From contig NZ_JAANOY010000001.1 of assembly GCF_011320095.1 (NCBI RefSeq), forward strand, positions 124,001 through 188,000: a DNA stretch of 64,000 nt, in the 5' to 3' direction. Source of the DNA: Cognatiluteimonas telluris. Lineage in GTDB: Bacteria > Pseudomonadota > Gammaproteobacteria > Xanthomonadales > Xanthomonadaceae. The translations under genes were made by a program, and so were the position numbers. Numbering within the stretch: position 1 is the first letter of the stretch; the number at the start of each line of letters is the position of its first letter. Of this stretch, positions 18,348-21,340 are shown one piece after another. The notes below the pieces were generated by a model. The model was not told the DNA's origin. It saw only the letters and a list, made by a program, of their open reading frames with translations, and did no database searches.

Positions 18348-18947
18348 TCAGCGCTGTGGCTGCAAGCGGGCCAGCAGCAGTTCGCCGCCACCATCGAGCA
18401 CGAAGCGCTCGCGCGCGCTGCCCGGCGCCGCCAGCAGCGCGGTGTCCGCCGTCGCCAGATCCGGTAGCCCGGAGGCAGCGGCAAAACGCGCCTGGCCGGC
18501 CATCAGGTGCACGGCCCACAGGCTGCCTGGTTCGACGAACACCACCATCGGCCCCACCAGCGGCCGGTGCCAGAGCTGGGCATCGATCGCATCGCGACGC
18601 CACATCAGGTTGAAATCCTGGGTCGGGCCATCGATCAGCTGCCCGCTGACAGCGCGCTCACCGGAAAACCGCAGGCGATCGTGAGGCGGCAGCAACTCGT
18701 TGACCTGGCCATCGTCGAAACACAACCGCAGACCGTTGCCCGACAGCAGCACGAGCTCGCGGTCGACGCCATCGAAACGCGAAAACGCCGCATCCTGTTC
18801 GATCTCGGCGATCGACAACCGCCAGGTCCAGTCGCCCTCGCCGGCCGAACGGGCGATCTCGCGCGTCCATCCGAGCTGGTTCTTCCAGCGCTCGCGCCGG
18901 TACAGGCGCGCGGGGATGACGCGGGTGCGTTCGGCGGACAAAGGCAT
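18348..18947 (-). CDS. HutD-family cupin-like protein
   Basis: The 199-residue protein matches HutD, a beta-barrel cupin-like family often linked to histidine utilisation. Typical features are YRRERWKNQLGWTREIA near the N-terminus and the central WTWRLSIAEIEQDAAFSRF. No hut enzymes lie nearby, so the role here is open. I chose ATG 18947; the frame is open further upstream but that part overlaps the comEA terminator region. It converges with the PepSY gene across 17 bases. Confidence 0.85.
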   Translation of the reverse strand: MPLSAERTRVIPARLYRRERWKNQLGWTREIARSAGEGDWTWRLSIAEIEQDAAFSRFDGVDRELVLLSGNGLRLCFDDGQVNELLPPHDRLRFSGERAVSGQLIDGPTQDFNLMWRRDAIDAQLWHRPLVGPMVVFVEPGSLWAVHLMAGQARFAAASGLPDLATADTALLAAPGSARERFVLDGGGELLLARLQPQR

Positions 18948-19034
18948 GCCCACAGTGTAGTGCGGCCGCGACGGCGGCCGTTGGCGGGCGCGTCCCGGCC
19001 ATCGTCCGGCGCATCGGAGCCATGCACGCGAGCG

Positions 19035-19079
19035 ACGAAAAGAAGCCGCCCGACCCTGCTTCCAGCGGGGCCGGGCGGC
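19035..19079 (-). terminator. Rho-independent terminator for comEA and its 3' RNA
   Basis: On the minus strand, GCCGCCCG (19079-19072) pairs with CGGGCGGC (19052-19045), an 8-bp GC stem, followed by the T-rich TTCTTTTCG (19044-19036). It is one of the few convincing intrinsic terminators in the window. Confidence 0.75.
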
Positions 19080-19190
19080 ATACGTCCCTGTTCCGGCCTC
19101 CTTGCCGGGCTTCCTCGGGGCGTCCTTGCCTGGTGCCAGGCGCGCTCCGCGCTGCCTGCCCCAGTGGATCGGGGGCGGCACGCGGCCGCG
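19035..19190 (-). ncRNA. Candidate GGA-rich structured RNA downstream of comEA
   Basis: On the minus strand between the comEA stop and its terminator there are seven GGA triplets between 19148 and 19061. One is in a textbook CsrA/RsmA-binding hairpin: stem CCGGC/GCCGG with hexaloop AAGGAG (19108-19093). A second AAGGAC sits between GGC and GCC (19130-19119). A strong hairpin followed by TTCTTTT ends the region. It may be a 3'UTR-derived or independent RNA that titrates CsrA/RsmA. No independent promoter is clear, and the ends are approximate. Confidence 0.35.
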
Positions 19191-19213
19191 CGCGCCCCGG
19201 TTGTCGCGTTGCG

Positions 19214-19576
19214 TCAGCGGCGGGCCGACGGGGCCGCTGGCCGCGATGCGTGTGCCGGCACGGCGCTGCCGCCAAGCACGATGCGCCCGCGGTTCTTCTC
19301 GACCGTCTTCAGCCCGATGCCCTTGACCAGCGCCAGCTGCTCGGGGCTCTTGAAGCTGCCGTGCGCCTTGCGATAGGCAACGATGGCTTCGGCCTTGGAG
19401 GGGCCGATGTTGAGCAGCACGCGATCGATGGTGGCGGCGTCGGCGGTGTTGAGGTTGACCCGGTCCACGCCACTTGCAGGGGCACGGTCGGCGGCATGGG
19501 CGGCGCTGGCGAGCAGCAGCGAGAGGGCGAGTGCACGGCCCAGCAGCCGGGCCCTGGTGGCGATTGCAGTATTCAT
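19214..19576 (-). CDS. comEA: ComEA-like exported helix-hairpin-helix DNA-binding protein
   Basis: This 120-residue protein has a signal peptide (residues 1-28, cleavage after ASAAHA) and a ComEA helix-hairpin-helix domain (40-100), with hairpins at IGPSKAEAI (57-65) and VKGIGLKT (84-91). ComEA proteins bind incoming DNA in the periplasm during natural transformation. GGAA lies a few bases before ATG 19576. Its 3' side holds a terminator and a possible structured RNA. Confidence 0.9.
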   Translation of the reverse strand: MNTAIATRARLLGRALALSLLLASAAHAADRAPASGVDRVNLNTADAATIDRVLLNIGPSKAEAIVAYRKAHGSFKSPEQLALVKGIGLKTVEKNRGRIVLGGSAVPAHASRPAAPSARR

Positions 19577-19709
19577 GTCGATTCCTTCGAGGGTGGGATT
19601 CCGTTCATGCCGGCCTGGTCCCTGCCGGTGGAGAAAGTCTGCGCGAATCCCATGCAGGCACCGTATCGCCGCAGCCCCTGGCGCGAAGCCGGTCAATGCC
19701 GCGCGAGGC

Positions 19710-19727
19710 TGTCGGAAAAGTCCTACA
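19710..19727. promoter_or_regulatory. Inverted repeat in the comEA / M20 peptidase spacer
   Basis: The sequence TGTCGGA-AAAG-TCCTACA (19710-19716/19721-19727) is an inverted repeat with 6 of 7 pairs. It lies 134 bases before comEA and 60 bases before the peptidase start. It could be an operator for either gene. A second stem-loop (AGCCCG...CGGGCT) follows directly. Function is inferred from position only. Confidence 0.35.
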
Positions 19728-19786
19728 GACGAGCCCGTGAGGAGCGGGCTTGTAGAATGACGGTTCGACCTTCGGAACCGCTGCCC

Positions 19787-21340
19787 ATGGATGCCACCCC
19801 CGCCCAGCCCACCGCCCCCGCGCCACAGGGCCCCGCGTCGCTGCAGGCGACCGCGATCGACAGCTTCGTGTCCGACATGTGGGACCAGGACATCGTCCCG
19901 CAGCTGTGCGACTACATCCGGATCCCCAACAAGTCGCCGATGTTCGATGCCGACTGGGTCGCCCATGGCTATATGGACGCCGCAGTGACCTTGATGGAGC
20001 GCTGGGCACGGAAGCAGCCTGTCGACGGCATGATCGTCGAGGTGGTGCGGCTGGACGGCCGCACGCCACTGATCTTCCTCGACATCCCGGCGACCGACGG
20101 ACGCAGCGGCGAGGACTGCGTGCTGCTCTATGGCCACCTGGACAAGCAACCGGAAATGACCGGCTGGGATGAAGGCCTGGGTCCGTGGGAACCGGTGCTG
20201 CGCGAGGACCGGCTCTATGGCCGCGGCGGCGCCGACGACGGCTACGCGATCTTCGGTTCGCTGGCGGCGATCCAGGCGCTGCAGCAGCAGGGCGCCCCGC
20301 ACGCGCGCTGCGTGGTGCTGATCGAAGCCTGCGAGGAATCCGGCAGCGGCGACCTTCCCGCCTATGTCGACCACCTGGCCGATCGTATCGGCAAGCCGTC
20401 GCTGGTGGTGTGCCTGGATTCGGGCTGCGGCAATTACGACCAGCTGTGGTGCACGACGTCGCTGCGCGGCCTGGCCGGTGGCAACCTCACCGTGCAGGTG
20501 CTGGAGGAAGGCGTGCATTCGGGCGATGCCTCCGGGATCGTGCCATCGAGCTTCCGGCTGATGCGGCAACTGCTGGCGCGGATCGAGGACGCCGACACCG
20601 GCCGCATCCTGGTCGACAGCCTGCATGTCGAAGTCCCGCCCGACCGCCTGGCGCAAGCGCGCAAGGTCGCCGAGGTGCTGGGCGACGAGGTCTACGACAA
20701 GTTCCCGCTGCTGCCGGGAATGACGCCGATGTTCGACGGCGGCGATGACGTATCCGAGCTCGTGCTCAACCGCACCTGGCGGCCGGCGCTGTCGGTGACC
20801 GGCGTCGACGGCATCCCGCCGCTGGCCTCGGCCGGCAACGTGCTGCGTCCGTTCACCGCATTGAAGCTGTCCCTGCGGCTGCCGCCGACGCTGGACGGCA
20901 AGCGCGCCGGCGAGGACCTCAAGCGCATCATCGAACGCGATCCGCCCAATGGCGCCAAGGTCACGCTGGAGCTGGAGAAGGCCAGCAGCGGCTGGAACGC
21001 ACCGGCCAGCGCACCGTGGCTGGAGCGCGCGATCGACACCGCCAGCCAGGAATTCTTCGGCCGCCCGGCGATGTACATGGGCGAAGGCGGCACGATCCCG
21101 TTCATGGGCATGCTTGGTGAGAAATTCCCCGGCGCGCAGTTCATGATTACCGGCGTCCTCGGGCCGCATTCCAACGCGCACGGCCCCAACGAATTCCTGC
21201 ACGTCCCGATGGGCAAGCGGGTGACGTCGTGCGTGGCGCGGGTGATCGCCGAGCACCATGCGGCGAGCCTGCGCGGGGAAACCACCGGGGTCGGCGCCGT
21301 GGCCGGTGGCGAGCACCACGGCAAGCACGGCTGCTGCTGA
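19787..21340 (+). CDS. M20-family metallopeptidase (dipeptidase type)
   Basis: The 517-residue enzyme has the di-zinc motifs of the M20 family: YGHLDKQPEM (His and catalytic Asp), GRGGADDGYA (bridging Asp), EACEESGSGD (catalytic Glu pair) and HGPNEFLHV near the C-terminus. It probably hydrolyses dipeptides or short peptides. The dimerisation lid lies in the middle of the chain as expected. ATG 19787 is preferred with GGAA at about 9 bases upstream; ATG 19757 adds ten residues. No clear signal peptide is seen. Confidence 0.9.
   Translation: MDATPAQPTAPAPQGPASLQATAIDSFVSDMWDQDIVPQLCDYIRIPNKSPMFDADWVAHGYMDAAVTLMERWARKQPVDGMIVEVVRLDGRTPLIFLDIPATDGRSGEDCVLLYGHLDKQPEMTGWDEGLGPWEPVLREDRLYGRGGADDGYAIFGSLAAIQALQQQGAPHARCVVLIEACEESGSGDLPAYVDHLADRIGKPSLVVCLDSGCGNYDQLWCTTSLRGLAGGNLTVQVLEEGVHSGDASGIVPSSFRLMRQLLARIEDADTGRILVDSLHVEVPPDRLAQARKVAEVLGDEVYDKFPLLPGMTPMFDGGDDVSELVLNRTWRPALSVTGVDGIPPLASAGNVLRPFTALKLSLRLPPTLDGKRAGEDLKRIIERDPPNGAKVTLELEKASSGWNAPASAPWLERAIDTASQEFFGRPAMYMGEGGTIPFMGMLGEKFPGAQFMITGVLGPHSNAHGPNEFLHVPMGKRVTSCVARVIAEHHAASLRGETTGVGAVAGGEHHGKHGCC

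Follow-up and report, generated by a model that had tools for sequence, protein, structure and literature searches.

The 3′ end of the comEA mRNA of Cognatiluteimonas telluris is most likely (probability about 0.85) an RsmU-type RNA presenting GGA sites that bind and titrate CsrA/RsmA, a tail that, judged by comparison with relatives, very probably soaks up this global regulator. Its anatomy, its recurrence in relatives, its single copy, its link to the comEA locus, its retention without comEA and a palindrome upstream were computed here. RsmU-type RNA was already known in Xanthomonas; the range beyond Xanthomonas, the presence without comEA and the candidate Gac site are new.

The comEA tail in the window

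The window, i.e. the whole 64,000-nt stretch of DNA analysed, carries comEA on the minus strand (Table 1). The comEA product scored above the cut-off of the ComEA helix-hairpin-helix model TIGR00426 and below that of the full-length comEA model TIGR01259. The stop codon occupies 19216-19214 and the GGA region follows directly 3′ of comEA (coordinates checked by script); the 177 nt after the stop codon end with an intrinsic terminator on the minus strand. The original prediction had described a GGA-rich stretch between the comEA stop and a good terminator, with a CCGGC/GCCGG stem and the loop AAGGAG at 19108-19093, and these parts are present. By script, seven GGA start at 19148, 19125, 19114, 19101, 19094, 19087 and 19063 on the minus strand and span 88 nt, the hairpin lies where it was claimed, and the terminator has its stem at 19079-19045 with the TTCTTTTC tail behind it. 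A pattern scan missed this terminator, and an internal mismatch is suspected as the cause.

Table 1 Features of the comEA region, in positions of the window.
Feature	Position	Strand	Remark
Palindrome TGTAGG-ACTTTT-CCGACA (TGTAGGACTTTTCCGACA), GacA/UvrY-box-like	19710-19727	minus	begins 151 nt before the start codon of comEA
−10-like GATACGGT	19660-19667	minus	51 nt from the palindrome centre; −10 role presumed
comEA coding sequence, host mRNA of the RNA	19217-19576	minus	HHH_3, E 1.4e-19
comEA 3′UTR holding the RsmU-like RNA	19037-19213	minus	fold and match to model R1
Stem-loop A, GCGC-GGA-GCGC	19142-19152	minus	predicted when the RNA starts at 19165; absent from the fold of all 179 nt
Stem-loop B, GGC-AAGGAC-GCC	19119-19130	minus	in relatives e.g. 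GGGGCAGGACGCCCC
Stem-loop C, CCGGC-AAGGAG-GCCGG	19093-19108	minus	hairpin named in the original prediction
AACAGGGACGTA	19081-19092	minus	contains the conserved site ACANGGANGT; counts in the text
Intrinsic terminator, then TTCTTTTC	19037-19079	minus	GGA in loop; from the fold; paired positions covary in relatives

Taken by itself, the window gave weak evidence. Seven GGA in 179 nt compare with a mean of 4.4 in mononucleotide shuffles (P 0.12, i.e. about one time in eight), a count unremarkable for such G-rich DNA; the comparison with relatives carries the case. One other stretch in the 64-kb window, both strands considered, has seven GGA within 88 nt. It lies at minus 14648-14549, antisense to the start of an open reading frame that reads like a TonB-dependent receptor. 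At the gathering score the window had no Rfam match, including to the Rsm/Csr families (clan CL00106), and RsmY scored at best 14.6 bits with 57 required; membership in these Rfam families was rejected on this ground.

The fold of 19213-19035 was more stable than dinucleotide shuffles (z −2.58). In this full-length fold, the GGA at 19101 and 19063 lie fully in hairpin loops. With the start set at 19165, the GGA at 19148 does so too, and our guess for the mature 5′ end is near 19165-19150. The remaining four are paired or partly open. Looped GGA, which the original prediction had proposed to count, thus number three of the seven, which speaks against the sponge reading. Stem-loop B is not the best fold of the window sequence itself, where another fold competes; at the position of stem-loop A, GGA hairpins are also present in relatives.

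Recurrence in the family

Relatives' comEA genes were anchored by tblastn, and the sequence after the stop codon was compared. The family set comprised 121 loci, distinct but not independent, which remained after identical and short ones had been dropped from 127 tool-assigned loci and 31 named loci placed by name. The outgroup consisted of 31 of 49 other comEA loci (Pseudomonas, Marinobacter and others); 18 were omitted for doubtful family or frame, or too little sequence.

In the first 150 nt after the stop codon, which in some loci run into the next gene, the 121 family loci had on average 6.1 GGA versus 2.1 TCC, with 3.6 GGA in mononucleotide shuffles. In loops on stems of four or more perfect pairs there were 1.93 GGA per family locus, versus 0.25 TCC and 0.49 in dinucleotide shuffles. 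At least five GGA were present in 90/121 family loci and in none of the 31 outgroup loci, whose means were 1.3 GGA and 1.5 TCC.

Many family loci have the same ordered parts: one or two GGA hairpins like GGGGCAGGACGCCCC, a hairpin like GGCAGGATGCC, the site ACANGGANGT, and a GC-rich terminator, often with AGGA in its loop. Judged by their sequence, the hairpins GCGC-GGA-GCGC, GGC-AAGGAC-GCC and CCGGC-AAGGAG-GCCGG, followed by AACAGGGACGTA, are the window's local versions of these parts. The site ACANGGANGT, which we take to resemble the CsrA consensus, occurs within 260 nt in 80 of the 121 family loci, in 0/31 outgroup loci and on 0/121 antisense strands; 41 family loci are without this core motif. 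Among the named records, those of Lysobacter, Luteimonas, Vulcaniibacterium, Pseudoxanthomonas and Stenotrophomonas are some that carry the motif, and it is absent from the named Thermomonas records (L037, L049). The original prediction hung on conservation of the hairpins in relatives. A lack of conservation is excluded, as the parts recur in many relatives, but they are not universal in the family. Of eight congeners, only G006 showed the region by DNA-level similarity alone (76% over 109 nt). Around 19018-18989, short matches to other contigs fall in unrelated sequence and were dropped.

Stenotrophomonas- and Pseudoxanthomonas-type loci (L055, L057, L058, L062, L046, L067, L075) are GGA-richer, with up to 12-13 GGA in 180 nt. 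ACANGGANGT is found twice in L046, L067 and L075, and in six family loci in all; from these sequences, the GGA array seems to grow by duplication. One record titled Bacillus subtilis (L062, JAHREJ010000005.1) has comEA and a GGA array like the Stenotrophomonas records L055 and L058, and is probably mislabelled or contaminated.

Covariation was assessed on an alignment, A1. Of 66 non-redundant core-bearing loci it takes in 45; the search had not placed the terminators of the other 21 well. The rows were picked by the core motif, so its invariance there is by construction. A 17-pair structure gave 87.8% standard pairs on A1, versus 76.7% in shuffles and 29-37% when slid. Fourteen of the 17 pairs change on both sides, and double-change cells numbered 100, versus 34.7 in shuffles and 7-25 in slid controls. 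Nearly all of this covariation came from the two-part terminator hairpin, with hairpins A-C outside the structure assessed, and it therefore supports a transcribed, terminated RNA rather than CsrA hairpins. A small stem around ACANGGANGT was unsupported by covariation in A1: two of its pairs never vary, owing to row selection, and a third is unpaired in 31/44 cells. Only 40 of 81 core-bearing loci have at least four T in the 8 nt after the search-chosen terminator stem, and this weak T tail in half of the relatives' placed terminators slightly lowers our confidence in the RsmU-type reading.

The covariance model R1, built from A1, had one strong match in the genome of C. telluris, the window site (61.1 bits, E 8e-11), whose sequence is in the training set. 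The next matches reached 20 bits at E 0.29 or worse, and further RsmU copies in this genome were rejected; the weak matches L219 and L220 look like coding or chance. At E<=1e-4, R1 matched 174 of 297 family genomes in 34 of 54 genera, a count in which some matches could be a dispersed repeat rather than RsmU; 123/297 had no match at this threshold (stricter filters). When 106 of the matches listed were taken, 82 had a located comEA, and in all 82 genomes with both coordinates the match lay 37-247 nt behind comEA on the same strand. A comEA check on 30 loci found the gene within 3 kb of 27; the other three were two non-family matches and the comEA-less G077. Within the genus, R1 matched five of eight other genomes, and in the three negative ones (L009, L016, L022) a hutD-like gene starts within about 80 nt of the comEA stop.

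Among 200 genomes drawn from the order, 32 matched R1 at E<=1e-3, 28 from the family itself and four from others (one f3, three f12). These four held six matches, five of which were examined, and none was RsmU-like: L255 and L270 have the look of coding sequence or chance matches and L271 that of an ordinary terminator, and L256 and L272 belong to the dispersed repeat. This intergenic repeat is found in Xanthomonas-like genomes (L257-L267 in G013, G088, G114, G139 and G161; also L256, L268 and L272), and G013 has 17 R1 matches, one of them RsmU. In 11 loci from genus g6 it has two GGA hairpins, GGCGTAC-ATGGAT-GTACGCC and GGGGC-AGGAT-GCCCC, and similar layouts also occur in another genus and family. 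We take it to resemble a multi-copy set of CsrA-type sites. Six repeat loci had no Rfam match at gathering score; beside the repeat, L272 scores 34.8 bits for RsmW, below the threshold of 52.

If the tail were an ordinary G-rich terminator or 3′UTR with GGA triplets by chance, the shuffle result for the window alone (P 0.12) and the missing Rfam match at gathering score would be expected. However, the GGA loops and the ACANGGANGT site are specific to strand and family, and the RNA is retained without comEA. The GGA excess, the ACANGGANGT distribution and the R1 matches appear to refute this explanation in the main, and we consider it highly improbable.

RsmU of Xanthomonas campestris and genomes without comEA

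An RNA from the same place was described in X. campestris pv. campestris 8004 (Tang et al. 2020). According to the available part of that report, RsmU (sRX061) is cut from the comEA 3′UTR in isoforms of 77 and 117 nt, starts 25 nt after the comEA stop, has its terminator at positions 78-117, and was shown by EMSA and co-IP to bind RsmA (PMC7694677). When all four predicted GGA were changed to AAU, RsmA binding was left, the complex was smaller, and the RNA was still active on overexpression. From a BLAST search, the authors judged RsmU to be restricted to Xanthomonas (PMC7694677).

The terminator stem of L026, which we infer to be Xanthomonas, lies at the published RsmU distance from the comEA stop within a base or two, and because of this match the family RNA and RsmU are taken as one thing. 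L026, L155 and the window sequence are all in A1, i.e. the window is alignable with Xanthomonas-type members among rows chosen by core motif. RsmU and the window RNA have in common the comEA 3′UTR, the strand, the terminator and several GGA motifs. The proposal of a 3′UTR-derived candidate CsrA/RsmA-binding RNA is supported, with order, layout and motifs that match those of RsmU. Processing and RsmA binding have been demonstrated for the X. campestris counterpart only and would, by analogy, also take place in C. telluris. The C. telluris genome has two csrA genes, L031 (G000 C56) and L032 (G000 C34). One is canonical; the other is divergent (MLIITRKEGE..): its score clears the cut-off of Pfam and falls short of those of the NCBIfam CsrA equivalogs.

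Unlike RsmU as published, the family RNA extends beyond Xanthomonas, with R1 matches in 34/54 genera (here from sequence alone), and in some lineages it is GGA-richer or without comEA. A partial search of the open-access literature gave no report of RsmU outside Xanthomonas, nor of a Gac site before comEA. RsmX, RsmY, RsmZ and RsmW of Pseudomonas and CsrB and CsrC of E. coli have repeated GGA hairpins and an intrinsic terminator. The family RNA is like them in GGA hairpins and terminator, and a candidate palindrome of similar layout (18 nt, 6-nt spacer) lies upstream; in contrast to them, it is an mRNA tail and no separate gene in most genomes seen, and is without Rfam match at gathering score.

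No comEA match at E<=1e-3 was found in nine of the 297 family genomes. Five of these, all from genus g65, match R1 at E<=1e-6; among the other four were three weak R1 matches (E 0.01-0.04) and one genome with none. The comEA of a congener, used as query, reached a best E of 0.18 in the five comEA-less g65 genomes, and the same query found comEA in three congeners, one of which (G192) has no R1 match. In G077, the RNA occupies the same place as in the window, with a divergent M20-type peptidase gene on one side and a hutD-like gene on the other (names from translations). The peptidase flank is common to all five loci, and the hutD flank was seen in two loci checked. Two of the five assemblies are 86-90% complete, and that of G077 is 100% complete in 3 contigs. 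Upstream of the RNA, which keeps its GGA sites and terminator, all five loci have TGTCGGATTTTTCTGACC or a sequence close to it.

As the RNA is retained where comEA is missing, it seems to be maintained in its own right. The original prediction had also suggested a tie to DNA uptake. This tie is physical, comEA and the RNA sharing a transcript in X. campestris, yet dispensable, given the five comEA-less relatives. A purely cis-acting 3′UTR, in which RsmA bound to the tail would stabilise the comEA mRNA or serve its processing without any titration, would agree with observations from X. campestris in the available part of the report: without RsmA, comEA mRNA is less stable and RsmU undetectable, and RsmU loss left the tested traits (virulence, HR, swarming) unaltered (PMC7694677). 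Such a tail is, however, hard to reconcile with five comEA-less genomes that keep the RNA with GGA sites and terminator, and with loci that have at least 10 GGA in 150 nt, more than a cis site should need; we regard it as unlikely.

The upstream palindrome and possible Gac control

Many relatives have an 18-nt palindrome, TGTAGG-N6-CCTACA, upstream of comEA. According to the available parts of two reports, the GacA/UvrY site of rsmY, rsmZ and csrB is TGTAAG-N6-CTTACA, an 18-nt palindrome with a 6-nt spacer, and TGTAGGAGA adjoins the UvrY site in the E. coli csrB promoter (PMC4682653, PMC4950607). The window palindrome, TGTAGG-N6-CCGACA, differs from this canonical site and is alike in 6-6-6 layout and size. 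Within 330 nt upstream, the best 18-mer scored at least 9 of 12 in 67/92 family and 7/30 outgroup loci, with shuffles averaging 7.6, for a pattern defined post hoc on the same loci it was counted in. The C. telluris genome has four exact matches to the pattern, the comEA site among them. Palindromes of this type whose spacers are rich in A/T lie at three other places, G000 C34:202030, C47:21648 and C51:2812. The best match to a UvrY/GacA-like regulator in this genome scored 215 bits (strict UvrY cut-off 280), the next best 149. From their sequences, palindrome and regulator point to a possible Gac control of the RNA.

The palindrome sits between two divergent genes, and it may instead serve the M20-type peptidase gene or another regulator. 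With one mismatch allowed, its pattern has 66 matches in the genome versus 30 for a control, and it is also present in 12 of 29 loci without the RNA core. It was found, however, in 55 of 63 loci with the core (Fisher P 1e-5, ignoring phylogeny), and a −10-like box opening with GATA lies on the comEA side, 51 nt from the palindrome centre, in 40 of the 67 loci; in 6 the distance differs, and 21 have no such box. We hold service to the peptidase gene or another regulator to be possible rather than probable. A sigma-70 scan of 18900-19900 on both strands reported no promoter, other promoter types being outside its reach; a promoter inside the RNA region was rejected with this result, and the proposed −10-like box GATACGGT was likewise not reported.

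In the comEA leader, a stretch recurrent in relatives, GGANACTG..CACCGGC, reads CGCAGACTTTCTCCACCGGC here (19643-19624, minus strand), and comEA leaders often have GGA near the ribosome site. This stretch is perhaps a second CsrA site.

For an RsmU-type RNA that titrates CsrA/RsmA, the comEA transcript would start at a promoter with the GacA/UvrY-like palindrome upstream, pass through comEA and end at the terminator (19079-19037). Whether cleaved off, as in X. campestris, or still attached to its mRNA, the tail would bind CsrA/RsmA dimers at its several GGA sites, titrating them from other mRNAs. Titration would be the effect and a GacA-like regulator the putative driver. In a more general form, to which we give an even chance, RsmU would be the general Gac/Rsm output RNA of Xanthomonadaceae: a GacA-like regulator at TGTAGG-N6-CCTACA would drive comEA-RsmU, and in one genus that lost comEA the sponge would have become a stand-alone gene at the original location.

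Xanthomonads have CsrA and, in the available parts of two reports, no recognised CsrB/CsrC or RsmY (PMC7286519; PMC7694677), which makes it an issue how their CsrA is switched off. With a candidate sponge in a large part of the family and a candidate Gac site, this question becomes directly testable. The comEA-less genomes amount to a natural experiment and suggest that a regulatory RNA that arose in a 3′UTR can outlive its host gene. If the general Gac/Rsm output reading is true, the stand-alone sponge in the comEA-less genus would show selection on the RNA itself, and one signal would make both a DNA-uptake protein and a CsrA sponge.
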